From assembly GCA_031761405.1 (NCBI GenBank), contig JASEVX010000003.1, forward strand, positions 18,314,489-18,378,488: a stretch of 64,000 nt of DNA, in the 5' to 3' direction. Shown one piece after another: positions 9,067 through 55,254 of this stretch. Under the pieces are notes generated by a model. It had not been told where the DNA came from, ran no database searches, and worked only from the letters and a program-made list of their open reading frames with translations. The stretch comes from Serripes groenlandicus (taxonomy: Eukaryota; Mollusca; Bivalvia; Cardiida; Cardiidae). Made by a program: the position numbers and the translations under genes. How positions within the stretch are numbered: the stretch's first letter is position 1; the number at the start of each line of letters is the position of its first letter.

Positions 9067-9100
9067 ACGGTTGGGAAATTAAAGAACAAAAGCCTGAAAT
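9067..9100 (+). other. AKAP1: AKAP1 5' UTR at the start of the first coding exon
   Basis: A long pyrimidine tract ending TTTCAG (AG at 9065-9066) lies 34 bp before the ATG, so the first coding exon is probably exon 2, with a non-coding exon upstream that I could not place. Confidence 0.55.
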
Positions 9101-10129
9101 ATGTCTAACTTAAAAACAGTTATTACATTTGCCATTCCGGTTGTGACCGCCTTGTTTGGCTTGCTATGGTTGCTTGGGAAAAAGAAACCCCCAGCTCGCA
9201 AGAAACTAAAACTTGATGATGAAAACGATATAAAGGTTAATCAGATAAGAAAAAGTACTGATGAACAAAGGAATGACAACAATTCAGCAGATTCCTTGAA
9301 TGCATTGTCAAACATACAAGAACAAATGGTTTTGGAATCCAACCTAAAGTCAAGCCAGGAGCCAGAAGCAAATAAAATACCAGACACTGTTGTTGTTGAG
9401 CAAATAACTCCAGTCATTGAAACCAAACTTAAGAGTCAGGCTGTGAATGAAACATTTGTGAAACCTGTTAAAGATGAACCAGTGCTGAATGATGTAAATG
9501 ATTCATTACTTTCACAAATTATTGTCACAGATATGCATGTTGGATCTTCAAATGACAAAAATGGGCTAGAGGACATTACTTGTAATGGAAATGAAATGTC
9601 AACATTTGTATGTGAAAGGATTGTACCAGATGTTGAGGACAGTCTAAACATATCACCAGAAATTGTTAATAAGGATCAAGCTGAAATTATACAGACAGTT
9701 GAATTTAGTTCCGTTTTAGAAACAAATTCTGAAAAAGTAACACATGAATCACAAACACCAACTGACATTGTACCAGAAGAAAATGTTATTGAAGTTTCTA
9801 ATGAAAAGCCCTCCTCACAAATGTCAAAGTCATGGCATGAAGATGTTGAGGAAAGTGAAAAGAATTCAAATGGTTTTCTTGAAGAAAGTGAAACCAATGT
9901 AAGCAATGTGGAATCAGACAAAAAGCTGCCTGCTGCAGTTAACAATTTTATAAAAGATTCATGCAGCCCTATAAAGCATGTGAATGACATGCGTAGTTTG
10001 TCAAAGGATAGATCCTCAATGTCGCCACAATCCAAAAATTCCAGCCCAGTCAGCAGAAATATTAAAAAAGTTAAAGATGAAAGTCTTAATCACTCTGAAT
10101 CGTCATCAAGCTGTGATAACTCGAGTGAG
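9101..10129 (+). CDS. AKAP1: AKAP1 coding exon 1: mitochondrial anchor and acidic linker
   Basis: 343 codons. The frame stays open 18 bp past the donor, to a TGA at 10145-10147. I place the donor at GAG|GTTCGT (10130), which joins in phase 0 to exon 2; an alternative GT at 10125 would be out of phase. The linker is rich in E, S, N and V; candidate amphipathic stretch QAEIIQTVEFSSVLE is a guess for PKA binding. Confidence 0.9.
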
Positions 10130-13100
10130 GTTCGTAAAACTGTTTGAAGTTGTTGACTCGTTTTCCAGGGTTTGGCTTGAAATGACCTTGAAATCTTAAA
10201 GAACATGAAACCTGTATTATCAGTATAAATGGCAAAGCAAGGCTCATCCCACAACCCTTTCCCACATTCAGAAGATTTCTGAAGTTTCTGCAACAATTGA
10301 AAACATTGTGGCAAAAAAAGAAACTTATGATGGAGGATTTTTTTCATATTTATTGTCTAGTTGTTTTCAAAACTGTCTGTTGCAGAATTCAATTGTTCAA
10401 TTGTTGTTTATGGGAAAGGGTTAATGAACTTAATTTATCCATGTCATTAAATTGATTATTTCAACATAATATCCATATTATCAGATTATTATGACAAATA
10501 TGGGTGAAAGAGAAGCAAACAGCAAACAAAATTTGACTGCACGTTTGTGCCTTTAACCCCCTTTCCCATGTACAGACATCTGAAAATATTGTGCAAAAGA
10601 TGATTTTGTGTAGGTGCTCAGTCAACATGGTATTAAATCTCTGAACAAACTGAAACTGCAAGCATCTGGAAAAACAGGAGTACTTAGCTTTGGGATATTT
10701 GAGAGCCAGTGTTAAGACCCAGGTTTGGAGCCCTGTAAGTGACTGTCATGGAAGAGTTCCCTAGGGCTTGGTCATCAATAAGTGTACCGTCTCATACCAA
10801 CATCAAGTTTGAAAGCAATTCTGATGAAATGTTCTACCATAACCCTTTCCCTCATATAGACGCTTTCTGACGCCTCTGCAGCAGACAGCTTTTTGAAAAC
10901 ATAGTGACAAAAGAAGAAATTGCACAAAACGTGCAATTTCTCTTTTTGCCACAATGTTTACCACTTGTTGTCATAGTAACCATTCAATTATTGAGATTTT
11001 CTATGTTTAGACAAAATACGTTCAAAGTCGTCTGCTGCAGAATTGTCGTATGAGGGAAAGGGATAACCCTGTTCATCTATTTTAATGGTAATTTACCTTT
11101 TCCCACATCGTATTTTAAATGTTGTCGGACTACAAAGGTGTTGAATGTATAATTTTACTGTTACAGGCATCCAATGACAGTGGTAAAGGTGGAAGCCTTG
11201 GTGACAGTCTTGTTTCACATCCTGAAGAAGATAGAGTGTTTGAGTTCAATATTCCCTCAGATATGTGTGGACTTTTCATTGGAACGCGAGGCAAAACTGT
11301 CAAACAAATACGGGATCAGTCCGGTGCAAGGATAAGACTAAAAAACAATCCGTACACAAGGGATTTCCAAATTTGTGTGGTAGAAGGTTTGTAGAGTAAT
11401 GCATATAATTTTACCCTTTCCAATGACAAATCTGCAGCAGACGACTTAAAAAACATATTTTGTCAAAAAATGGAAACTCTTTAATTGAATAGATAACCTA
11501 TGACTAAAAGTGGGAAACATTGTGGCAAAAGGATAAATTGCTCGTTTCGAGCAATTTCTTTTATTGTCACTGTTTTCAAAAAGCCGTCTGCTGCAGAGGC
11601 GACAGAAAGCGTCTATATGAGGTAAAGGGATAACTGATTCAACTTTTTTGTCGCATAGATCTGCAGCAGAAAACTTTTGAATACATTTAGACAAAGGTAG
11701 AAATTGCTCTTGATGAGCAAATTCTCCTTTTACAACAATGTTTTGAACTTTATTAATTAAATAATTGTTCTTTCATAAATATATAGATTTTCCATATTTT
11801 TGACTATATGTTTTTCAAAAGTCATCTGCTGCAGATTTGTTGTATGTGGGAAAGGGTTTAAGGGATGACTTGTCTGGTTCTTGTACAATCTCCATTGTCT
11901 ATCATGATTTGACTTGACCCTTTCCCTCTTATAGACGCTTTCTGACGCCTCTGCAGCAGACGACTTTTTGAAAACGGTGTCAAAAGAAGAAATTGCTCAA
12001 AACAAGCAATTTCTCCTTTTGCCACAATGTTTTCTACTTTTAGTCATGGGTTATACTTTCAATTATAGTGATTTTCTATGTTTTCACAAAATATGTTCAA
12101 AGTCATCTGCTTCAGAATTGTCGTGTGAGAGAAAGAGATTACAGTTCCTGCAGGCAACACATATTTCTTGGAACAGGCTTGTTAATTCCTCTCCGTCTTA
12201 TAAATTGCCATTGGACTTTTTCGTGATAAATTACTTTTTGAAATGTTTAAATTGACAAAATTACCAAACAAGATACCTGAACATAGTGTTAACATATGAA
12301 TGATTTTGTACAAAGATCAAGATAGCCACATGCTTCTGGTCACACCCATCAGTTTGATTGTATTTCCAGGAACTGAAGTGATAATCAACAGAGCATGTAA
12401 GATTATCAAAAGAAAGTTTCCAAGTATAAGTATCCCAGGGATTGATAGCGGAGCAGTTAGTAGTACAGTCATCATGCCAGAAATCATGCAGGTATTGTGC
12501 TGTTATACTTATATACCCTTTCCCACATACAACACATCTGTAGCAGACAAATGCTAAAATGTCTACGCAAAATAGTGAAACTCTGAAACTCGGTATGAAA
12601 GAAAGTGTAATTATGAGCAATTTCTACTTTTGTCACTATGTTTTCAAACATTGTCTGCATGTGGGATGACATGTAGTCCTCCTGTTGTGGAATAAAAGGT
12701 AGCTGTTTCTTTAATTTTATAATTATGCTCTTGAAGCATTAGATAGGTTTTATGACATTTAACTAAATGGAGATATTTGGGAGGAACAAGTCTCCTATTA
12801 CTTTTCAAGGCTTCATAGCGTGTGGCCAAAAGGGGTCTTGTGCCAAGTGTGTCCAGTGAGTCATTAATTAGTTAATGAGGCAAGTCTACTATAAATATAC
12901 TAATCAAAGCAAACACTGTCCAAATACGGTACCTCTAAAATAAACCTTGGTTACCAAAAAATGTAACAGCAGTCATTATATGGGACACACACTTGAAGAC
13001 ATTCAAATAAATACTTTTGTTTGTAGCTTTTTGTCGCAATCAATACTTTCCTGATTAAATGGGAAAGAAGGAAGATCCTTATTACATTTTACAGTGGCAT

Positions 13101-16100: not shown

Positions 16101-19100
16101 GTCGAAAAAAACTTTTAACCTTGACCACTTCTTTTGAACCATAACAAGTATGGCTACCATATCTCACATGTGTATTCCTTGTGACATGAACTTTCTGTCA
16201 GTACCAAATTTTTTGACATTTGCGACCTTGACCTTTGACCTAGATATCTTTGTCTGTCTGTCGAAAAAACCTTTAACCTTGACCACTACTTTTGAACCAT
16301 AACAGGTACTGCTACCATATTTCACATGTGTATTCCTTGTAACATGACCTTTCTGTCAGTACCAAAATGTTTGACTTTGCGACCTTGACCTTTGACCTAG
16401 ATCTCTTTGTCTGTCGAAAATAACTTTAACCTTGACCACTACTTTTGAACCATAACAGGTACGGCTACCATATTTTACAGGTGTATTCCTTGCGACCTTG
16501 ACCTTTGACCTAGATGTTGCCATTCGGGGGCATCAGTGTTTCACAAACACATCTTGTTCCACAATGTTTTCCTAAGCAATTTTTTACAGATGCATCTATA
16601 TGTGAGAAATTGTTCCATGTTGTTATGGTCAGTTGTACGCTCAAACTATGTTATCTCTTTTTATTGTGACATCTGCTATGGCTTTGACTTTTCCATACAT
16701 AGAACAAATCTGCAGTAGAGAACTTAAAAAATAACTTGGCGAATATTTGTAAAACCAGTTATAATCAAATTAAGAAACATTGCAACCAAGGATAGAAATT
16801 GCTCATGATGAGCAATCTCTCCCTTTTGTCTGCCTGCATGTGGAAAATAGCTAACTGGCTGGTGACACATATTCCTTTGAGCTCTCTATCCCAAATATAT
16901 TTTGTAGGTGGGGTAATATGTGCAGCCCCTATGTTAAATGGTTGGTACCGAGCCCAGATCATGGTGTATTATGAGGATACAGACGAATGTGATATCAAAT
17001 ATGTGGATTATGGTGGATACAGTCGGATCTCTAGTCTCTGTCTCAAACAAATACGAAGTGATTTCATGACCTTGCCTTTTGAAGCTATAGAGTGCTACCT
17101 GGCAAATGTCACGCCTCTTGAAAGTAAGTGGACATTTTTCTGTGTTAACCCTTTCCCTGATACAGTTTATTTTCAAAAAATAGTGCAAGTACAATAGGCA
17201 ATTTTGTCTTCAAGTTTTCATAGCATATAAATGTTTCCATAGGAAAACCTAGACTATTAGATTGCAGTCAATGGGCGTGCAGATGTCAACAATTGGTGTT
17301 GATCCTATAGCTTCTCTTTGCATTGTTAGAATATAAATAATTTTGCTAAAGTGTCAACCATCACCTTGATATGTTACAAAAAAAAATTCCATATTGATCT
17401 GATCTAAAGAGCAATTTCTCCCCTTGTCATTATGTTTTCAAAAGTGTTCTGCTCTATAAATTTGAAATAACATCAGTTTATGTGATTACAGATGAAAGTT
17501 ACTTTAGCCCTGAGTCGTCTGTTGTACTAGAAGAATTAACCCAGGGTAAAATGTTACAAGCTCAGGTTGTTGGGAAAGCAGAGGATGGGATTCCATACAT
17601 ACATGTTTATATGATTAGTGGCCCAAACCAGGTATTGATTGCTTTACTCTTTCTAACATCTGAAGTACACAACTTTTGAAACATAAGGCATAAGGAGAAG
17701 TTGCTCATGATATGCAATTCCTCCTTTTGCTTCAAAGTTTTTAAAGCTGTACAATAATTATGCTTCCTTTTAAAGAGATTTTCATATTTCTGTACCTGAC
17801 GGTCCCATAATATGGTGTCTGTGATTTTGTGTTACATCACAAACTGTGGTGTCCTCTTTTGGTGTGATGTAGCAAGACACCAGAGACTGCACAAAGTGTG
17901 TAACAGAGGGCACCAAACACTGAACAAATCACATAAAGGCATAAACCTGTTCGGTATAAACTATTCTACATTGAAATGAATATGAATTTATTATGCAGTG
18001 TGGCTACGAAAGTAGAATATTATGTCCATTTCACCCGACGTAACAAGAGACACAAATCGTCATTTTCTTCAATCAAAATTGAATAAAAAAATATTTGTAG
18101 TGAATTAATTAGGTTTGCAAACATCTTCAGACAATTTAAATCAATAAATAAAAAGCGAACATTCATTGCAAAACATTCTGAGCAACCACTGATAAAATGA
18201 ATCTGTGAGTGATGAGGACTGTCAAAGTTTTCCAAGTTTCACAGCAACCATTCTTGACCCGCAATATTGACACACTGTCATAAACGGTTCAAACTTAAAA
18301 ATCTTTTCAATAGTTAATGTCATAAATAGATCGGAAAATTTCATGTTTCTCCTTTGGCGATAGACAAAGTATTTGTTAATTATAAAAAAAATGTTATGTA
18401 ATAAAAAAAAAAAAGACAATTTTCATACTCGATACGTTGACTCTGTGTGTCAGAATTATACTATGTGTCAGAGAACAATCTGTTTTTGACATTAACATAG
18501 AATTGTAGCGAACACATGATTATAATGCATTGGTAATGAGCTAAAATGCTTTTAAGACATGACATAAATTTCTCACAAATAAGTTTGCTTAAAAGAGGGT
18601 AAAAAATGATTTTGGTTTTCAAACACCAATTGTGGGCGAGGACACCTGCAAAATGCACCAGAAAAGTTCAATTTAAATGAATGAACCGTTCTTTTAAAGG
18701 TCAATATCATATATCATTTCATACAGTTAGTTGTTTCAAACTCTTTCTGACATATTTTACAACTATTTAACACATATTTAATATGAGTAATCAAATAACA
18801 AATCTGTGATATAACACAATACCCCAGACACCATATTATGGCTTACCTGGATATTTTCAAGGTTGTTTATCGCAGATATGATGTACTGGTATACGTGAAA
18901 GACTGCTAACAGATTTAATCAATGGCAAACGATGTGTCAATGTGTTGAAAACATGTGAAGTAGTCTGTCAGTTTTGTTTTATGTGGCAAAGTGTTAACTG
19001 TCTTCTGCAATATCTATAGTCGCCTGCTTTGAAACAATTTGAGTAGAAAATCCTAATGTCTTGAAAACTGAAAGAATGACTTGGAGATGCTTCTTTTGAT

Positions 19101-23092: not shown

Positions 23093-23223
23093 AACCAGTA
23101 GAATCTTCAGCTTAGGAAAACAACTGAGGAAAAGAATAAAAGCAAAGCTAAAATTTCATATGCTGTTGAAGTCATTGTTTGAATAGATAAAATTAGTTGT
23201 TTTTTGAGAAATATCTGCTTTTT

Positions 23224-24178
23224 AGCTCATCTGTGCACAAAGTGCTCAAGGTGAGCTATTGTGATCACATGTTGTCTGTTGTGCGTCTTCAACAAGTGCC
23301 TTGTTAACACTCTTCAGGCAACATTTTACATTCAATCTTCATGAAAGTTGATTAGAACATACATCTCCACCAAATCTTGGCCAATTTCGAAACTGGGTCA
23401 TGTGAGGTCAAAAACTATGTGACGTGATCAAATTGGAGGTAAATCTTGTTAACACTCTAGAAATGTTGTCAGAATGATTGTCTTCATCTAGGCCAAGTTC
23501 GAAAACTGGGTCAAAATGTAGAAAAATCTTGTTAACTCCCTGGAGGCTGTATCTTGGGCATGTTAAAATTATCAGAATAATTGTCTTAAATGATATCTAG
23601 GCCAAGTTAAATATAGGTCATATCCCGTCATAAACTAAGTCACTAGGCTAAATTGAAGGAAAATCTTGTTATAACTCGAGAGGCTGCATTTTCTGCTTCA
23701 GCAGCTTGAAACTTTGTCAGAATATTTTGTCTTGATGATATCTAGACCAATGTTGAAACTGGGTCATTTGAGATAACAAAAAAAATACTAGTTGCAAGGT
23801 CAAATTGAAGGAAAATCGTGTTAACGATCTGGAGGCCACACTTTTATCTTAAATATGTTGAAACTGTCAGAATAATTGTCTTGAAAATATATAGGCAAAG
23901 TTGTGTCACATCGGGTCATAAACAAGGTCACTAGACCAAATTGAAGGAAAATATTGTTAAAACTGATTGCAGCATTTTTATTTTTGCAAGAATGTTTGTC
24001 TTGATTGTATCTCAGCCAAGTTCGAAATGGGTTATGTCCGGTTAAAAACACGGTCACGTGGCCAAATTGAAGGAAAATCTTGTTAACACCTTATTACAAT
24101 GCAATACCACATAATGAGGTAGTGTGAATGACTTGACACAACTGAGGTGAGCGATCCGGGGACATAATGGCCCTCTTG
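23224..24178 (-). mobile_element. Helentron/HINE-like element, CAAGAGGGCC family
   Basis: Minus-strand start CAAGAGGGCCATTATGTCCC then GGATCGCTCACCTCAG; end has GCTCACCTTGAGCACTTTGT, a hairpin, and GATGAGCTAAAAA. The core repeats CCAAGTTCGAAA, GGTCACTAG and AAATTGAAGGAAAATCTTGT about every 110-130 bp, at least six units. Confidence 0.82.
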
Positions 24179-27510: not shown

Positions 27511-27524
27511 GTTTTCGACATGAT

Positions 27525-28174
27525 TGAAGGAATCTGATAGAGGGTCTCCCAAGGAACATTTCTACAAAATTATTTGAAAATTGGGCAAACATTTTCGGTG
27601 ATGATTTTTTAAGTTTTCACTATAGCCATATAAGGCAAAATATTCCCGCCCCCCTGGTGGCCATGTTTTTTGACCAATCAATTTGGCTTGAAGGAATCTG
27701 ATAAAGAGTCACCCAAGGAACATATCTACAAAATTATTTGAAAATCAGACCGACACTTGCAGAGGATAAGTTTTATTTAGTTTTCACTATAGCCATATAA
27801 GGCAAAATAGCCCCGCCCCCTGGTGGCCATGTTTTTCGTCCAATCAATCTTGCTTGAGGGAATCTGATAGAGGGTCACCTAAGAAACATTTCTACAAAAT
27901 TATTTGAAAATCGGCCAACCACTTTCGGAGAAGATTTTTTGAGTTTACACTATTTCTTTCTTTCGGTTGCCATGGAAACCAGAAATTTTGCATGGATCTA
28001 AAAAATTTGAAGGAATTCAGGAGAGGACATTGAGAGGATGCTTCCTATGAAGTTTCATCCTAATTGGCCCAGTGTTTAGGGAGGAGAAGTCGTTTGAAGC
28101 AAAACGTTAACGGACGCACGCACGGCGGACAATTCGCCATGACATAAACTTGACTGGATTCAGCCAGTGGAGCT
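27525..28174 (+). mobile_element. Helentron/HINE-like element, 5'-truncated
   Basis: Tandem units of about 170 bp (GAAGGAATCTGATAGAGGGT, AACATTTCTACAAAATTATT, CCATATAAGGCAAAATA, GGTGGCCATGTTTT), then a unique 3' part with CGCACGGCGGACAATTCGCC and the terminal hairpin CTGGATTCAGCCAG before TGGAGCTAAAAA. Confidence 0.72.
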
Positions 28175-29035
28175 AAAAATGAAATTATAAAGTTTTGCCA
28201 TTTTGCGCCTTTCCTGATGCCGCCTGACTGCCATGTTTTTCAATCAATCAGTACTTGAACAACTTTTGTAGAGGGTCAGCCAAGGAACATTTCTACCAAA
28301 TTATATTGGAATCTGACAAGCTGATTCAGAGGAGAAGATTTTTGAAATTTGGAAATTTCACACCCCTTCTGATGCCCCAGCAACCAAAGTTCTCCATGGA
28401 ATTTAAATCTTCGAACAATTATGAAAGAGGACCACCAAAGGATCATTCCTGTGAAGTTAACTTGAAATTGGTCCAGTGGAATGGTAGGAGTTGTCATTTG
28501 TAGCTAAGTTCTATTTACCCCTTTTGTGATGATGCCTGGTTGCTATGATTTTGTAACCAACCAGTAAGGCTTGGTCAAATTAAGTAGAGGATCACTGAAG
28601 TAAGTTATTCAAGTTTTTTTTTAAATCCGACAAGCATTTTCATAAAAATGGAATTTTCAAATTTTGCCCTTTTCCTGATGCCGCCGGACTGCCATGTTTT
28701 TCAACTAATTGGTATGACTTGAACAACTTCTGTAGAGGGTCACCCAAGGAACATTTCTACTAAATTATATTGGAATCTTACAATCAGATTCAGAGGAGAA
28801 GATTTTTAAAGTTTAGACATTTTGCCCCCTTTCTGATGCCGCAGCAACCAAAGTTCTCAACGGAATTTAAATCTTTGAACAATTTTGAAAGAGGACCTTT
28901 AAAGGGACATTCCTGTGAAGTTTGTGATGACGCCTGGTTGCTATGATTGTGTAACCAATCAATACGGCTTGATAAAATTAAGTAGCGCATCACTGAGCTA
29001 AGATTCTTATTTAATTTTCTTTAGAACTTTAATAA

Positions 29036-35016: not shown

Positions 35017-38000
35017 CTGAAATATTATATTCATATATGATTATTACAGTCATGGAACACTAGACGCCATTCTTTGGAGCAAAGTTGAAAAGGGCCACAA
35101 CACTAAATTGGTGCATTGTAACCAAATATGAATATGTTCTGTATTTTATTGTCTTAACCCTTTCCCTCATATAGGCGCTTTCTGACGCCTCTGCAGCAGA
35201 CAGCTTTTTGTAAACATAGTGACAAAAGAAGAAATTGCTCAAAACGAGCAATTTCTCCTTTTGTCACAATGTTTTCCACTTTTAGTCATAGGTTATCCAT
35301 TCAATTATAGAGATTTTCTATGTTTTGACAAAATATGTTCAAAGTCGTCTGCTGCAGAATTGTCGTATGAGGGAAAGGGTTAACCTGTGTATAAACAAGA
35401 ATGCCGCCAAGGGAATGCCAACGCTCTTCTGTTTTTTCTTTCTCTGTCGAAAAAGGAGCATTTCTGAATAATTATTAAAGCCAGAGTTATGTGACTTGGT
35501 ATAGACATGCATAATGTTTTTAGAAACATGTGTACCAAGTTTCATTTGAAAATGTTGAATAGTTTTTGAGTTACGAGGTAAGTTAAAGTTTTGTGATGAC
35601 ACAGACTAAAATCAGTCAACCCTTGCATGAGTTATGGTCAGGTCGTTGTTGTTTTTTGCAATTTGTAAGTTGTCAAGGGGGCAAAATATGGGTGGCTTGT
35701 GCCCAAAGTTCAACTTGACCTGTATTTTATTGTCTTAACCCGTGTCCCTAAATTTATTTAATAAATCAATCAACCCTTTCATGAGTTCTAGCACCAACAG
35801 ACTGACTGATGGACCAACTGACAGACAAACTCACACCCATATACTGCGCTTAACTTCTTTGTTAAGGTATATTTATTAGATATCAGCTAAAAAATGAATT
35901 TTAATGAAGTAGAATCCTTTTCCCGACAACAAATCTGCAGCAGACAATTTTGAAAACAATTAGACAAAAATTGAAAGTATTGAATAGAGTTGAAAACATT
36001 GTGGAAAGAAATTGCTCATTATGAACAATTACTTCTTTTCAAACAAAGGTTTTGAAAAGTTTTCTGCTGCAAATGTGTCTGCATGAAACAAAGGGTTAAA
36101 ATCCAAGGGTGACAAACTTTACCTTAGCTCTGACCATTAACTGATTCTGCGCTGCTTCTATGTTCTTATCTTCACCCTTCCAGGCTTTGAGAACACTTGC
36201 TTGTAGAGCTCGCCCGAATGAGAAGCTGAGAGCCCATGGTTTGGGTCCCGCACTCGTATTTATGGCGTTAAGATTGAGGGTGGAATCTTCCTCGGACTGC
36301 CCGCCAGATAAAAACACAATTCCTGAAAATCAAATTATAACATTATCAGAGCTTAACCCTTTCCCTCATACAACAATTCTGCAGCAGACGACTTTGAACG
36401 TATTTTGTCAAAACATAGAAAATCTCGATAGTTGAATGGATAACCTATGACAAAAAGTGGAAAACATTGTGGAAAAGGAGAAATTGCATGTTTTGTGCAA
36501 TTTCCTCTTTTGTCACTATGTTTTCAAAAAGCCGTCTGCTGCAGAGGCGTCAGAAAGCGTCTATATGAGGGAAAGGGTTAAAATAAGGAGCATTATTCAT
36601 ATGCATAATTCCAGATGATGATAATTTAATTCATTTACCCTCACCATGCAGAATAACTATTTGTAAAGCAAAATTACTGAAACAACTCCAATTCCTACAT
36701 ATATCTATATATGGGGGAAAAGCCCCACCCTCTGGTGCCCATGTTTTTAACCAATCAACAAAGCTTGTTTAGAAATTTCAAGTCTTTTCTCATGGAGAGG
36801 CTAAATGTTTAACCCTTTCCTACAAATAGATGCTTTCTGACGCCACTGATCAAAACGAGTATGTTTTCAACTTTTTTCAGTAATGATACTTTCATCAGGG
36901 ACGTCTTATCTACATCCCTGCTTTCATTTACCCTTTCCCTCATAAGACAATTCTGCAGCAGACAACTTTGAACATATTTTATCAAACAAGAGGGCCATGA
37001 TGGCCCTTGAATCGCTCACCTGATTTTTATTTTTTTTTCACTTTAGCTATATAAGCCATGCCCCCTGGCAGCCAGTTTCCGACCAATCAACTTGGCTTGA
37101 AGGAATCTGATAGAGGGTCACCCTAGGAACATTTCTACAAAATTATTTGAAAATCGGCCAGATACTTTTGGAGGAGAAGATTTTTTAAGTTTTCACTATA
37201 GCCATAAAAGGCAAAATATCCCCCATGTTTTTTGACCAAACAACATGGCTTGAAGGAATCTGATAGAGGATCACCCAAGGAACATTTCTACAAAATTATT
37301 TGAAAATCGGCCTGACACTTTTGGAGAAGAAGATTTTTTAAGTTTGCACTATAGCCATATAAGGCAAAATAGCCCCGACCCCCTGGCGGCCATGTTTTTC
37401 GACCAATCAACATGGCTTGAAGGAATCTGATAGAGGGTCACCCAAGGAACATTTCTACAAAATTATTTGAAAATCGGCCTGACACTTTCGGAGGAGAAGA
37501 TTTTTTTAAGTTTTCACTATAGCCATATAAGGCAAAATAGCCCCGCCCCCCTGGCGGCCATGTTTTTCGACCAATCAACATGGCTTGAAGGAATCTGATA
37601 GAGGGTCACCCAAGGAACATTTCTACAAAATTATTTGAAAATCGGCCTGACACTTTCGGAGGAGAAGATTTTTTTAAGTTTTCACTATAGCCATATAAGG
37701 CAAAATAGCCCCGCCCCCCTGGCGGCCATGTTTTTCGACCAATCAACATGGCTTGAAGGAATCTGATAGAGGGTCATCCAAGGAACATTTCTACAAAATT
37801 ATTTAAAAATCTTCCAACCAGTTTGGGAGAAGAAGAATTTTGAAGTTTTTTTCGTTTCGTTGCCATGGAAACCAGAATTCTGCATGGATCCCTAAAATTT
37901 GAAGGAATTCTGGTGAGGTCATTAAGAGGATGCTTTCTGTGAAGTTTCATCCCAATTGACCCACTGGTTACTGAGGAGAAGATGTTGAAGATTTTTTAAG

Positions 38001-41000
38001 TTTTCACTTTGGCCATATAAGGCAAAATAGCCCCCGCCCCCTGGCGGCCATGTTTTTTGACCAATAACATTGCTTGTAGGAATCTGATATAGGGTCACCC
38101 AAGGAACATTTCTACAAAATTATTTGAAAATCGGCCTGACACTTATGGAGGAGAAGATTTTTTAAGTTTTCATTATAGCCATAAAAGGCAAAATAGCCCC
38201 GCCCCCTGGCGGCCATGTTTTTTGACCAATCAACATGGCTTGAAGGAATCTGATAGAGGATCACCCAAAGAACATTTCTACAAAATTATTTGAAAATCAG
38301 CCTGACACTTTTGGAGAAGAAGATTTTTAAGTTTGCACTATAGCCATATAAGGCAAAATAGCCCCGCCCCCCCCTGGCGGCCATGTTTTTCGACCAATCA
38401 ACATGGCTTGAAGGAATCTGATAGACGGTCACCCAAGGAACATTTCCACAAAATTATTTGAAAATCGGCCTTACACTTTCGGAGGAGAAGATTTTTTAAG
38501 TTTTCACTATAGCCATATAAGGCAAAATAGCCCCGCCCCCCCCTGGCGGCCATGTTTTTCGACCAATCAACACGGCTTGAAGGAATCTGATAGAGGGTCA
38601 TCCAAGAAACATTTCTACAAAATTATTTGAAAATCTGCCAACCAATTTGGGAGAAGAAGAATTTTGAAGTTTTTTCAGTTTCGTTGCCATGGAAACCAGA
38701 ATTTTGCATGGATCCCAAAAATTTGAAGGAATTCTGGTGAGGTCATTGAGAGGATGCTTTCTGTGAAGTTTCATCCAAATTGACCCACTGGTTACTGAGG
38801 AGAAGAAGTTGACGCACGACGGACGACGCACGACGGACGCCGGACAAAAGGCGATCACAATAACTCACCTTGAGCAAAGCTCAGGTGAGCTAAAAATGGA
38901 AAATCTCTATAATTGAATGGATGACCTATGACTAACAGTGGAAAACATTGTGGCAAACGGAGCAATGCTCGTTTTGAGCAATTTCTTTTTTGTCGCTGTG
39001 TTTTCAAAAAGCCATCTGATTCAGAGGCGTAAGAAAGCTTCTATATGAGGGAAAGGGTTAAAGAGATTTTTCCATGATTGTGTATGATTATTTTCTAAGT
39101 TGTCTGCTGCAGAATTGCTGTATGTGGGAAAGGGTTAAGGTTGATTTTCATGTGATTTGGAATGAGACAAAGAGTATCATCTTACCAGGAACAGCTGCTG
39201 GTACCCCTCGACTCAATGCTGCCACTGTAGCCTGACCATTTTGTTCATGAGTGTATTTCTTTGTACAGCTTTGACCTGCAGTTACCATGTTGGGTTTAAG
39301 CAGGGTACCTTCCAGATACACATGGTGATCACTGAGAGCTTTGTAAGTAAATGCAAGCACCTGCAAGAAGAGGAAGAAAACTTTTTTCCACTTGTAGACT
39401 AAATACATTTTGACACATCTGCAGAAGACAACTTCGGATTTGTATTTCTACTTTTGCAACATTGTTATCAGCTCTATTTAATGATTATAATTTCATTTAC
39501 AGTGAGTTTTTTATTTTAATCTTGATAGCTTTCAAAGTCATCCGCAGCAGACGGCTTTTTCAAAACATAGTGACAAAAGAAGAAATTGCACAAAACGTGC
39601 AATTTCTCCTTTTGTCACAATGTTTTCAATTTTTAGTCATAGGTTATCCATTCAATTATAGAGATTTTCTATATTTTGACAAAATATGTTCAAAGTCGTC
39701 TGCTGCAGATTTGTGTTGTCTGTGGGAACAGGTTTATAACTTTTGGAGTTTAACCCTTTCCCTCATGCAACAATTCTGCAGCAGACGACTTTGAACATAT
39801 TTTGTCAAACTATAGAAAATCTCTATAATTGAATGGATAACCTATGACTAAAAAGTGGAAAACATTGTGGCAAAAGGAGAAATTGCACGTTTTGTGCAAT
39901 TTCTTCTTTTGTCACTATGTTTTCAAAAAGCCGTCTGCTTTAACCCTTTCCCTCATACAACAATTCTGCAGCAGACGACTTAGAACATATTTTGTCAAAA
40001 AATAGAAAATCTCTATAATTGAATGGATAACCTATGACTAAAAATAGAAAACATTGTGGCAAAAGGAGAAATTGCTCTTTTTGAGCAATTTCTTCTTTTG
40101 TCACTATGTTTTCAAAAAGCTGTCTGCTGCAGAGGCGTCAGAAAGCGTCTTTATGAGGGAAAGGGTTAACCCCTTTCCCACATAATAAAACTCTGCAGCA
40201 GACAACCTTGAACAGATCTTGTTAGAAAAATTGAAAACCTCTACAAATAAATGTTTAGGTATTGAATAGAGTTGAAAAAATTGTGGCAAAAGGAGAAACT
40301 GATCATTATCAGTAATTTCTCCTTTTGTTACAATGTTTTCATATGTGTCAGAATGAGTTATAACTAAATAGATTCCCCAAATTGTGAAGTCTCCAGTCAC
40401 TTATCTAAAACAATTCATATTGCGCAAAAATGAGATCAGTAGTGGCATAAATTTCTCCCATTTCCATAATAAACTGTCTGCTGGTTAACCCTGTCCCTCA
40501 TATAGAGGCATTTTGATTCATCTACAGCATACAACTTTTGACAACATTTTGACAAAAGGAGAAATTATTCATTATGATCCATTTGTCGTTTTGTCACAAT
40601 ATTTTTTAAATCTATTCACTATATATGAAGATCCATTTTATAAAGGCCTCGCTCAAATACGGTCACCAAAATTAGCCTACCTGTTCTGTAACTTTCTGGG
40701 CTGTCTCAAGGTCATGTTCCCCGTCACACAGAACTTCGGGCTCCACTATGGGCACAAGACCATTCTACGAAGAAAAATATCTGATCATTTCTGACACCAT
40801 TTAAATCAAATTTGATGGTAAGCCCTTTCCCACCTGTAAAGGTATTTTGACGCTACATAGAGCACAAGATTTGAAGACATTGTGGCAAAAGGAGAAATTG
40901 GTCATCATGAGCAATTTCTCCTTTTGTCCCAAGGTTTTCAACTCTATTTAGTAAATTTATATCTAGCATTAATAATAGCAAGCATAAATCCATTTAAAAG

Positions 41001-44000: not shown

Positions 44001-47000
44001 ATTTTCTTTCAATATGACCTAGTAACCTAGCCATGCTTACCAACCTTTTCTCATTCTCTAGGGGGAGTTTCATGATCTCAAAGTGAGAGATTGGGGTTTG
44101 AAGGGGGAGATTTTCAGTGTGATGAATTTAACAGGAGAAATTTTCACGAAAGAACGGAATTTAGATAACTATGCAGGAGACAATACTTTCAATATTTATA
44201 GGAAAAGAATAAAATAGACTCATTTTGAGAATGTTTTCTATTTAACAGAATATTTTCAACTGTATGTTAGCATTTAAATATTATTTTGGCACGTTTTCAA
44301 ATTCATGCATTAATATTAAAACAAGAGGCCCATGAGGGCCTATGCTCTACTGGTATGGTTCTTTGGTCATTTTCAATCCAGAGCATGTATGTATGGTGAA
44401 GATCGGATAGTAAATGGAGGCTCTTTTGTGTTCACAAGCTGTATTATAGCAATTTTTACAATTTCATGGACCATAATCCAATCTTGCATGGGCGGATCTG
44501 GCTGATTTTCAAAAGGAACCAAGCTCTCATCAATATTTAACTACTATCTAAGTTTGGTGAAGATCAGATAGTAAATGGAGCCTCTATTGTGTTCACATGC
44601 TCAATTATAGCAATTTGGACAATTTCAAGGGCCATAATCCAGTCTTGCATGGGCGGATCTGGCTGGTTTACAAAAGGAACTGAGCTCTCATGGATATCTA
44701 ACTACTGTATAAGTTTGGTTGAGATACAATCAAAAGTGAAGACTGTATCGTGTTAACAAGCTCTTTTATAGCAATTTTGACCATTTCAAGGGCCATAATC
44801 CAGTCATGCATGGGCGGATCTGGCTGGTTTTCGAAAGGAACCGAGCTCTTATGGATATCTAACTACTGTATAAGTTTAGTTGAGATACAATAAAAAAAGA
44901 AGACTGTATCGTGTTAACAAGCTCTTTTATAGCAATTTTGACCATTTCAAGGGCCATAATCCAGTCATGCATGGGCGGATCTGGCTGGTTTTCGAAAGGA
45001 ACCGAGCTCTCATAGATATCTAACTACTGTATAAGTTTAGTTGAGATACAATCAAAAGTGAAGACTGTATCGTGTTAACAAGAAATCGTTTACGGACGGA
45101 CGCACGGACGACGGACAAATCGCCACGACATAAGCCCTTCTGGCCTTTGGCCAGTAGAGCTAAAAACCTTTTAATTGTGGTTATCTAGAAAATCAAGCAA
45201 GTTGTCTGTTGTGTCAATGACTTTTCATATTGCATCCAAGAAAGAAAAATCTTAACCACATTTAGATTAGACCTACTTTTGAATGAAATACTGAGTACCA
45301 ATTGAATCTTTGTTAATCTAATGACACAGGGAGAAATAATTTAGTTGACAGATTTAAAAAAACAAGAGGGCCATGATGGCCCTGGATCGGTCACCTTAAT
45401 TATACAATGTACTGCAATGTAAAACACATCAAGACAATTATTCTGAATGCAACCTCCACAATGTTAACAAGATGATTTTCCTTCATTTGGCCTAGTGATC
45501 TATATTTTGTTACCTGATATGACCTATATTCCAACATGGACTAGATATCATCAAGACAACATTCTGACAAAGTTTCAACTTGCTCAAAGTAAAAATGCGG
45601 CCTCCGGAGTTTGAACAATATTTTCCTTTATTGACCTAGTTTCTAATCCAATATGACCCATATTCGAACTTGACCTAGATATAATTCAGACAAACATTCT
45701 GACCAAATTTCAAGCTGCTGAAGCAAAAAATGTGGCATCCAAAGTGTTCACAACATTTTCCTTCAATTTGATCTAGTGACCTAGTTTTTGACCCAGCATG
45801 ACCCATATTTGAACTTGGCCTACATATCATCAAGAAAAACATTCTGATAAAGTTTCATCATGCTGAAATAAAAAATGCAGTATCCAGAGTGTTAACAAGA
45901 TTACCCTTCAATTTGGCCTAGTGACCTAGTTTTTAACCCGGCATGACCCATATCCGAACTTGGCCTAGATATCATTTAGACAAATATTCTGACCAAATTT
46001 CAAGCCTAAGCAAAACATGCTACTTCTACAGATTTTCCCTCAATTTGGCCTAGTGACCTAGTTTCTGATCCAATATGACCCATATTTGAAATGGACCTAG
46101 ATATCTTTAAGACAAACATTCTGCAAAATTTCAAGCTGCTGAAGCAAAAGATGCGGCATCCAAAGTGTTAACAAGATTTTCCTTCAATTTGGCCTAGTGA
46201 CCTAGTTTTTGACCCGGCATGACCCATATTCGAACTTGGCCTAGATATCATTCAGCTCAACATTCTGAACAAATTTCAAGCCGCTGAAGCAAAACATGCA
46301 GCTTCTACAGAGTTAACAAGATTTTCCCTCAATTTGGCCTAGTGACCTAGTTTCTGACCCAATATGACCCATATTTGAACTTGACCTAGATATCTTTAAG
46401 ACAAACATTCTGACCAAATTTCAAGCTTCTGAAGCAAAAAATGCGGCATCCAAAGTGTTAACAAGATTTTCCTTCAATTTGACCTAGTGACCTAGTTTTT
46501 GACCCGGCATAACCCATATTCGAACTTGACATAGATATTTTGAAGACAAACATTCTGAGAAAATTTCAAACTGTTGAACCAAAAATTGCGGCCTCTGGGG
46601 TGTTAACAAGATTTTCCTTCAATTTGACCTAGTGACCTACTTTTTGACCCGATGTGACCCATGTTCGAACTTGACCTACATATCATCAAGACAAACAATC
46701 TGATAAAGTTTCAACATGCTCAAGTTGAAAATGTGGCCTCCAGAGTGTTAACAAGATTTCCCTTCAATTCGACCTAGTGACCTTGTTTTTGACCTCATAT
46801 GGCCCAGTTTCGAACTTGTCCAAGATTTTATGGAGATGAATGTTCTAATAAACTTTCATGAAAATTGGATGTAAAATGTAGCCCGTAGAGTAACAAGCTC
46901 AAATGTTGACGACGCACGACGCACGGACAAAATGTGATCCCAATAGCTCACCTTGCACTTCGTGCATAGGTGAGCTAAAAAGAGAAGAGAGTTTTTACCT

Positions 47001-52291: not shown

Positions 52292-53525
52292 CAAGAGGCC
52301 CAAGAGGGCCAGTATCGCTCCACGGCCATAATGCAAAAATCAAATCTCCAAACAGCCCTGCCCCCTGGTGGCCATGTTTTTTACCAACCACCATGGCTTA
52401 AAGGAATCGTGTAGAGTGTCACCCAAGGAATGTTTCTTCAAAATTATTTGAAAATTGGCCCGACACTTTCGGAGGAGAGGATATTTTATTTAGTTTTCAA
52501 TAAAACCATATAAGGCAAAATAGCCCCACCCCCTGGTAGCCATATTAGCTTAGGAACATTTCTACAAAATTATTTGAATATCAGTCAGACGCTTTCGGAG
52601 AAGAAGATTTTTTAAGTTTTCACTATAGCTCTATATAAGGCAAAATAGCCCCACCCCTAGCGGCCATGTTTTTCAACCAATCAACATTTCTTGAAGGAAT
52701 CTAATAAAGGGTCACCCAAGGAACATTTCTACAACATTATTTGAAAATCGGCTGGATACTTTCGGAGGAGAAGATTTTTTTAAGTTTTCACTATAGCCAT
52801 ATAGGCAAAATAGCCCCGCCCTCTGGCGGCCATGTTTTTCGACCAATCAAAATGGCTTGAAGGAATCTGATAGAGGGTCACCCAATGAACATTTCTACAA
52901 AATTATTTGAAAATCGGCTTAACACTTTCGGAAAAGAAGATTTTTAAAGTTTTCTCTTTAGCCATATAGGCAAAATAGCCCCGCCCTCTGGTGGCCATGT
53001 TTTTTTTACCAATCAACATGGCTTGAAGGAATCTGATAGAGGGTCACCCAATGAACATTTCTACAAAATTATTTGAAAATTGGCTGAACGCTTTCGGAGA
53101 AGAAGATTTTTTAAATTTTCACTTTAGCTATATAAGGCAAAATAGCCCCGCCCCCTGGCAGCCATGTTTTTCAACCAATCAACATTTCTTGAAGGAATCT
53201 AATAAAGGGTCACCCAAGGAACATTTCTACAAAATTATTTGAAAATCGGCCAAACACTTTTTGAGAAGAAGATTTTTTAAGTTTTCACTATTTTTTTCTT
53301 TTGCTTGCCATGGAAACCAGAATTATGGATGGATAGATAAAAAAAATTTGAAGGAATTTAAGAGAGGACATTGAGAGGATGCTTCCTATGAAGTTTCAAC
53401 CAAATTGGCCAAGTGGTTAGGGAGAAGAAGTTGTTTAATTAGGAAAAAGTTAACGCACGCACAGACGCACCCACGACGGACAATTCGCCATGACATAAGC
53501 TCGACTGGCTTTCAGCCAGTCGAGC
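52292..53525 (+). mobile_element. HINE-like element, CAAGAGGCCC family, about 6 units
   Basis: Starts CAAGAGGCCCAAGAGGGCCA; ends with GCTCGACTGGCTTTCAGCCA, GTCGAGCT and an A run. The core units are the same CCCCGCCC-TGGCGGCCATG type as in 36987-38891, so different termini share one core family. Sits in an old MITE (AACTTTGCAA...AAAATTGTGGGGAAATG). Confidence 0.85.
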
Positions 53526-53699
53526 TAAAAATTGTGGGGAAATGAAAAATTCACATTTTGTCTCGAGGTTTTCAACTTAACACACTTCTACTCTTTAGAT
53601 GCCTTTAAAGCCTTTTTTCTACAATGTTCTTAAGGTAGATTAAAACAACATGCTAAGCATACATATACAATTATGATGTCATTACAGCAGTAGACAGAA

Positions 53700-54332: not shown

Positions 54333-54528
54333 TTACAGACCTCTAGATGAGGGGTCTTTTTTATGTTCCGAATTCCTTATTTGATACTAAAACCCTATGT
54401 TGTGGGTACTCAAAAGAATCTACTCGGTCAGACAATTCTTTTGAGTACCCACAACATAGGGTTTGGTTGAGTATTAAGAGAGATATCGAAGGGAAAAAAC
54501 AGTTAACTCTCCCTTATCTAGTCCCCTA
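54333..54528. mobile_element. Palindromic MITE, GATAAGG-ended family, copy 4, with a perfect 30-bp hairpin
   Basis: Ends CCTCTAGATGAGGGGTC and CTCCCTTATCTAGTCCCC. The two arms 54390-54419 and 54435-54464 are exact inverted repeats (30 of 30) around a 15-nt loop, core CCTATGTTGTGGGTACTC. This is the best preserved of four copies. Confidence 0.85.
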
Positions 54529-54711
54529 ACGTAGTCTAGGCTTAGTGTGACCTCAAACGCATAGGTTACCATCTTCTTAAGTCATGCAAGATATCTCTAA
54601 ATAAATTATAATAACCTTTATGATATGGAAAATTATCTGAAAATTCCCTTGTGGTGTTAACCATTCAGTCATTGAAATTATCTTTGTCACAAGGAGAGAA
54701 AAACATGCAGC

Positions 54712-54787
54712 CAGTCCGGGGCTCGAACCCGGGACCTCTCGCTTTCAGGGCAAGTACTCTACCGTCTGAGCTAACCGGGCCGCTAAC
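54712..54787 (-). repeat. tRNA-like sequence in the downstream LTR (minus orientation)
   Basis: A box TAGCTCAGACGG, B box GGTTCGAGCCC. D stem GCTC/GAGT, anticodon stem CTTGC/GCGAG with 7-nt loop CCTGAAA, and T stem CCGGG/CCCGG all pair. An acceptor-like stem GCGGCC/GGCTGC pairs with one G-T but is offset. I do not call it a working tRNA gene: position 33 is C, and the acceptor is irregular. Confidence 0.75.
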
Positions 54788-54989
54788 ATGAAGTCCCTCC
54801 AACTGTGTACAAGTTCAGAGTGAGACCGTGACATACACCCCTGGTTAATTGGAAATTCGTCCCCGAATTTCGGAATTCCAGTGCCAAGGATGTCATAAAT
54901 CGCACTGCAAGCGCTATTAAACTGACCAAGCAGTGCTTTCACAGTCCCTTATTGGGCGCCAATGTCACAAGGAGAGAAAAACATGCAGC

Positions 54990-55065
54990 CAGTCCGGGGC
55001 TCGAACCCGGGACCTCTCACTTTCAGGGCAAGTACTCTACCGTCTGAGCTAACCAAGCCGCTAAC
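54990..55065 (-). repeat. tRNA-like sequence in the upstream LTR (minus orientation)
   Basis: Same as the other LTR except that the anticodon stem is CTTGC/GTGAG (still pairable by one G-T mismatch or wobble) and CCGG near the 5' end is CTTG. A and B boxes unchanged. Confidence 0.72.
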
Positions 55066-55254
55066 ATGAAGTCCCTCCAACTGTGTACAAGTTCAGACCG
55101 TGACATCTTTTAAAGAGCACTGGTCTGAAAATCATAAATGATGGTGAGTCTTGTTATATAATTAATTATAGAATTATATTGGCCAAAGAATTTTCACTGG
55201 CCCGAACCAAAGTTTACTGGCCAGGGACATTCGGACCATTACTAATCTCATAGA

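Follow-up and report, generated by a model that had tools for sequence, protein, structure and literature searches.

Structure of the element

The window, that is, the whole stretch of 64,000 nucleotides analysed here, contains a complete miniature LTR element of 421 bp on the minus strand, at positions 54685-55105 (Table 1). The initial annotation, made from the sequence of the window, had described two direct repeats of about 98% identity with TG...CA ends, a primer-binding-type site one base inside, a 4-bp TCTT duplication and boxes A and B in each LTR, and all of these features could be recovered. The LTRs are identical at 140/143 aligned bases (97.9%) and differ additionally by one 6-bp gap; their TG...CA termini sit within 6-bp inverted ends (TGTCAC/GTGACA). 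The duplication is present on both flanks, and both boxes occur in both LTRs. On the minus strand, TGGCGCCCAA begins one base inside the 5' LTR: the first base past the LTR is a T, which is followed by the primer site TGGCGCCCAATAAGGGACT.

Table 1. Coordinates of the element and its parts, in positions of the window
Feature	Position	Strand	Basis
5' LTR, 143 bp, TGTCAC...GTGACA	54963..55105	-	sequence
3' LTR, 149 bp; differs from the 5' LTR by 3 substitutions and 6 additional bases	54685..54833	-	sequence
Internal domain, 129 bp, non-coding	54834..54962	-	no overlapping ORF of at least 110 aa
Target-site duplication TCTT, adjoining the 3' LTR	54681..54684	.	sequence
Target-site duplication TCTT, adjoining the 5' LTR	55106..55109	.	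sequence
Primer-binding site TGGCGCCCAATAAGGGACT, separated from the 5' LTR by one base	54943..54961	-	complementarity to tRNA-Lys-like genes plus CCA
Polypurine-tract-like AGGGGTGTA, directly 5' of the 3' LTR, weak	54834..54842	-	sequence
GGACGAATTT motif close to the polypurine tract, common to family B	54853..54862	-	sequence comparison
tRNA-like unit, 5' LTR	54986..55058	-	Rfam RF00005, 39.5 bits; ARAGORN
tRNA-like unit, 3' LTR	54708..54780	-	Rfam RF00005, 48.1 bits; ARAGORN
Box A TAGCTCAGACGG, 5' LTR	55040..55051	-	sequence
Box A TAGCTCAGACGG, 3' LTR	54762..54773	-	sequence
Box B GGTTCGAGCCC, 5' LTR	54997..55007	-	sequence
Box B GGTTCGAGCCC, 3' LTR	54719..54729	-	sequence
Candidate Pol III terminator TTTTT in the 5' LTR, 4 nt past its tRNA-like unit	54977..54981	-	sequence
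Candidate Pol III terminator TTTTT in the 3' LTR, 4 nt past its tRNA-like unit	54699..54703	-	sequence

Each LTR contains a tRNA-like unit of 73 nt. What had been noted as a nearly complete tRNA cloverleaf per LTR is detected in both by the Rfam model RF00005 (cut-off 29 bits) and by ARAGORN, which labels both units Ser-TGA. The anticodon loop of a usual tRNA has a U33, and a tRNA-Ser is expected to have a long variable arm. Since the unit lacks U33 in its anticodon loop (CCTGAAA), shows a C-C mismatch in its acceptor stem and combines a TGA anticodon with a short variable arm, it is probably not a functioning tRNA.

Copies in the genome and their age

We searched the assembly that contains the window (1.76 Gb in 1739 contigs) for further copies. 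Of 1770 candidates, 40 were scored, which yielded 55 matches, and the best 30 loci, including the window copy (L001), were fetched. The element is present in the genome in dozens of copies at least. One end was unreadable in 6/30 fetched loci (L002, L020, L023, L028, L029 and L030). Among the 24 loci with both ends readable, the window copy counted, 22 are flanked by exact 4-bp duplications of varied sequence (the other two are L016 and L027); as the flanks of L006 and L017 are the same, this amounts to 21/23 distinct places. In the same 24 loci, the start TGTCAC is found in 22 (exceptions L016 and L019) and the end GTGACA in all. The initial annotation had named as support many copies that share the same ends, have duplications of 4-6 bp and contain the tRNA-like part always within the LTR. 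The copies read, with their duplications of 4 bp, agree with this and support the description of the locus as a miniature LTR retrotransposon whose LTRs contain a tRNA-like unit.

Several loci are head-to-tail arrays of LTR-internal units (L002/L020, L014, L019, L021, L024 and L027). Five of these arrays can be read at both ends, and in four of them (L014, L019, L021 and L024, not L027) the duplication flanks the entire array. In a more diverged set of loci (L031-L090), an exact duplication was kept in 6/18 distinct complete insertions, one of which (L035) is the place of L017 again; with mispaired flanks as a control, agreement was found in 7/306 cases.

The two LTRs are identical in 5/19 single-unit elements compared (the window copy among the 19), hence the family has been recently active. 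The window copy itself, to judge by an LTR divergence of 2.1% and an indel, is older than several of its sister copies. The earlier suggestion that high LTR identity reflects recent movement is to be corrected to this extent. The 6 extra bases of the 3' LTR look private to the window copy, since most other full-length matches among those listed are 415 bp long.

A scan of viral contigs with two patterns of the element gave 0 matches. At C1:103.97-104.22 Mb there are degenerate A-type Helenus arrays (L041-L046), six repeats with a spacing of about 47-62 kb, an indication of a large segmental repeat in tandem.

The probable primer tRNA

A genome search for tRNA 3' ends ending in TTGGGCG gave 104 places, compared with 15 for the reversed pattern. 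We read GTTCGAGTCCCTTATTGGGCG in 38 among 100 listed places (counted by eye), and 33 of these 38 lie in four local clusters. Three of the genes were read (L095, L096 and L098); with CCA added, each of them is complementary to the primer site of the window at 19/19 nt. In other words, a PBS complementary to a host tRNA lies just inside the 5' LTR, as in Helenus elements, and the tRNA genes are found in the same genome. In the anticodon region, all three genes have ACTTTTA and then about 20 additional bases, and ARAGORN reports genes of this type as an unnamed tRNA of 93-94 nt with the anticodon 'tt'. They are probably tRNA-Lys-UUU genes, in which the extra bases would be an intron.

A further gene, L097, which ARAGORN calls a tRNA-Lys, matches the primer site of the window over only 10 nt. 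It matches an alternative primer site, TGGCGCCCAACGTGGGGC, that is present in three B-type copies (L091-L093; see below). In a direct pairwise comparison, the tRNA-like unit of the LTR is identical to L097 at 49/73 positions. The 3' end of the unit is not complementary to the primer site of the element; likewise, the tRNA-like 3' ends in published Helenus families lack complementarity to the primer site (Kojima 2024, PMC10886601).

Clusters of tRNA-Lys-like genes are located at C224:11.276-11.278 Mb (with a period of about 163 bp), C1:162.14-162.15 Mb, C1:185.55-185.56 Mb and C446:16.487-16.495 Mb.

A second family and composite insertions

A pattern that joins box B, the LTR end and the primer site had 229 matches in the genome, compared with 2 in the reversed control; the first 100 or so were listed, and 30 were fetched. 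Besides copies of the window type (family A), we find a family B, which has an LTR of about 146 bp (TGTAGCC...GTTACA) and an internal domain of about 104 bp. Family B has its own, different tRNA-like unit in the LTR, for which Rfam gave no report at the gathering cut-off in the three loci tested (L039, L062 and L080). Common to both families are the primer site and a GGACGAATTT...AGGGG stretch ahead of the 3' LTR. The polypurine region of the window copy consists of a short AGGGG followed by TGTA, while family B has AGGGGG, and AGGGGGTATA stands at this position in most family B matches of a search with a pattern for the polypurine neighbourhood. Among the matches to the pattern with box B, a few with GGTTC...TGGCGCC (L050 and L060) look, by eye, like SINEs rather than Helenus.

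Three loci, L039, L076 and L047, are built from mixed A and B modules. For example, the order of modules in L039 is B LTR, A internal domain, A LTR and B internal domain. L047 is an inverted composite in which both outer ends are starts of B LTRs, with A internal domains and an A LTR between them. CGCA is found on both sides of L047, and the match between the flanks ends at 4 bp; L056, an inverted composite made of A modules only, has CTTA on both sides. Random 4-mers taken within the window were equal in 0.6% of trials. Five composites were examined in total: three (L039, L049 and L076) have one truncated end, so that a duplication cannot be assessed; L047 and L056, whose outer ends are both complete, each have one. 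The simplest reading is that L047 and L056 were each inserted as one molecule; the duplication around the chimeric L047 suggests that in this case A and B were copied together. A chimeric insertion of this kind gives access to the question of how one replication machine may be shared by two non-coding families.

At C852:132.505-132.506 Mb (L082-L085) lies a tandem array of family B with a period of 246 bp, in which a reading frame stays open over at least 316 codons; a period divisible by three is the likely reason.

Relation to known elements

Helenus elements are TRIMs with a tRNA-derived sequence in their LTRs, a PBS and a PPT; 51 families have been described from five orders of pteriomorph bivalves (Kojima 2024, PMC10886601). 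In animals, they have 4-bp duplications and tRNA-Lys is among their primers; they were assigned to Gypsy by the likeness of their primer sites (PMC10886601). By the traits described for Helenus, the element of the window belongs to this published kind. It matches in the tRNA-like sequence with boxes A and B in the LTRs, in the PBS and in the 4-bp duplication, and its polypurine tract is weak. The length of 421 bp with LTRs of 143 and 149 bp agrees with what defines Helenus in terms of size, i.e. two LTRs, a total below about 1.3 kb and no coding capacity. Our results provide an independent confirmation of Helenus at the level of individual copies, together with an exact match to a primer tRNA in the same genome.

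In the part of the main text of PMC10886601 available to us, the word 'terminator' occurs once, concerning Cassandra, TTTT does not occur, and neither a Pol III terminator nor chimeras between families are mentioned for Helenus. Within the literature as far as it was accessible, a meeting report (PMC12859917) is the one other text in which we found the name Helenus.

Cassandra of plants is likewise a TRIM with a small-RNA gene in its LTR. The initial annotation had pointed to an animal, tRNA-like counterpart of Cassandra; the analogy is apt, but such a counterpart has already been published as Helenus. The RNA of Cassandra is described as starting and ending within the two small-RNA units, with an R repeat of 18 bp (summarised in PMC10886601). 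Cassandra is derived from 5S rRNA and has this 18-bp RNA repeat, whereas the element of the window is tRNA-like and its predicted repeat is about 80-90 nt long. Arrays of Cassandra are treated in PMC7215508, as far as the accessible part of that paper goes. In the accessible part of the biv-TRIM paper (Satovic 2019, PMC6934838), a bivalve TRIM is described that forms tandem arrays, like the family of the window. On the other hand, biv-TRIM has TDRs of 202-218 bp, an internal domain of 77-80 bp and no unambiguous PBS, and the same part of the paper does not mention that its terminal repeats contain a tRNA-like unit. Finally, tRNA-derived SINEs (SINE2) are also short and non-coding and have a tRNA-like head with boxes A and B, but they have neither LTRs nor a PBS and are copied by LINE machinery.

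There is also a practical side to this for annotation: LTRs of this kind can be counted as tRNA genes by gene finders, which happened here with ARAGORN.

Proposed transcription and replication

A box A and a box B together make a type 2 Pol III promoter. In both LTRs, TTTTT starts 4 nt past the tRNA-like unit, and the sense strand of the element has no other run of four T. In shuffled sequences, the chance of a lone T-run this near to the unit, with no other, is about 0.02. From its position, TTTTT is a plausible Pol III terminator. It is retained in 69/72 LTRs from the other fetched loci, some of which are counted twice as L002 and L020 overlap. GGTTC is present in 62/64 distinct A-type LTRs, and in these 62 a T-run follows box B in 58 and precedes it in none. 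The conservation of the T-run is mostly due to recent common descent. We see T-runs in 0/31 internal domains of family A, which says little, because A-runs of 4 or more are rare there too (2/31); in family B, 3/18 internal domains have T-runs. A T-run upstream of box A is found in 25/34 LTRs of family B; with such a T-run the RNA would stop earlier and R would be much shorter.

We conclude, with a probability of roughly 0.88, that the element is a non-coding TRIM of the Helenus type, that Pol III likely transcribes it, and that its reverse transcription and integration are likely the work of proteins from a Gypsy-type partner. Transcription by Pol III would place it among the TRIMp3 elements (Pol III TRIMs). 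The RNA would start in the 5' LTR, at its tRNA-like unit. Pol III would read past the first TTTTT, which would have to be leaky, and end at the TTTTT of the 3' LTR. The tRNA-like unit itself would then be the R repeat at both ends of the RNA, and would serve in the first strand transfer. A tRNA-Lys would prime at the primer site, and the reverse transcriptase and integrase of the partner would complete and insert the copy. The placement of TTTTT thereby gives a concrete and testable RNA map for an LTR element driven by Pol III.

A more specific version, in which the tRNA-like unit serves at once as promoter, leaky terminator and R, and in which families A and B share a single tRNA-Lys primer as well as a single partner, in whose particles they recombine, is offered tentatively, as we consider it somewhat less probable than not. 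If it is true, one and the same tRNA-like fold would stand at both ends of the RNA, and L047 with its 4-bp duplication would record a recombination between A and B inside the particles of the partner.

A Gypsy partner, if present, would be expected to carry the primer site TGGCGCCCAATAAGGGAC and a GGACGAATTT...AGGGG stretch before its 3' LTR. We looked for a coding partner with three limited patterns, which cover a minor part of the LTR elements of the genome; the places read contained no such partner and gave only Helenus or Helenus-like sequence. The pattern for the polypurine neighbourhood had 44 matches, and all 30 loci read contain family B modules. The pattern for the tRNA-Lys primer site had 7 matches, of which 3 were read, and a looser primer site with the neighbouring LTR end had 10 matches, of which 1 was read. 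Of these four loci, three (L091-L093) are B-type copies of Helenus and the fourth (L094) is a degenerate B-like end. The only ORF longer than 110 aa in L091-L093 has 134 aa and is antisense, and L094 is without an ORF of 60 aa.

Alternatively, RNA polymerase II could transcribe the TRIM by means of the usual signals of an LTR, and the tRNA-like unit would be the fossil head of a SINE without any promoter function. The unit is indeed poor as a tRNA, given its missing U33, its acceptor mismatch and its TGA anticodon with a short variable arm, and Kojima 2024 (PMC10886601) states that a Pol III function has not been validated. However, box B reads GGTTCGANCCC in 59/64 and box A reads TTAGCTCAGTCGG in 42/64 distinct A-type LTRs, two families with different LTRs both retain a tRNA-like unit at this place, and a T-run at this distance from the unit is rarely seen in shuffled sequences. 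We therefore regard transcription by RNA polymerase II with a functionless unit as unlikely.

Two tRNAs called by ARAGORN, and tandem arrays of LTR-internal units, could also suggest that the locus resembles an LTR element but consists of two tRNA genes in tandem or of a dimeric SINE. Such a pair or dimer is highly improbable, and is ruled out in the copies read by the near-constant TGTCAC...GTGACA ends, by the 4-bp duplications, which in most arrays enclose the whole array, and by the 19-nt primer site beside the 5' LTR. A separate nested insertion of the tRNA-like part in the window copy alone is less probable still and is ruled out as well, since the unit is present inside the LTRs of the copies read and the LTRs can be aligned across it both in the window and in the other fetched loci, with the share of the commonest base averaging 0.991. 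Both outcomes that had been set in advance as refuting the initial annotation, namely a SINE dimer and a nested insertion missing from most LTRs, are thus absent among the copies read, and a Helenus-type TRIM with a likely Pol III transcript is the reading we prefer.

Other features of the window

About 220 bp from the element, at about 54390-54464, there is a near-perfect inverted repeat with arms of about 30 bp. Its folding energy is -53.8 kcal/mol for 111 nt (z -10 compared with shuffles), and it could be a small MITE or the precursor of a hairpin RNA. Three separate tandem arrays (27515-28184, 37022-38812 and 52350-53532) have a common unit of 166-169 bp. Another tandem repeat, at 45446-46858, has a unit of 145 bp, and a related inverted sequence is found about 21 kb off, at 23218-24092. 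An ORF of about 347-349 aa with a hydrophobic start lies at 9098-10147; a protein search returned one match for it, an unnamed protein with 39%. Finally, positions 16796-17197 contain a Tudor-domain exon (Pfam E 1e-14).
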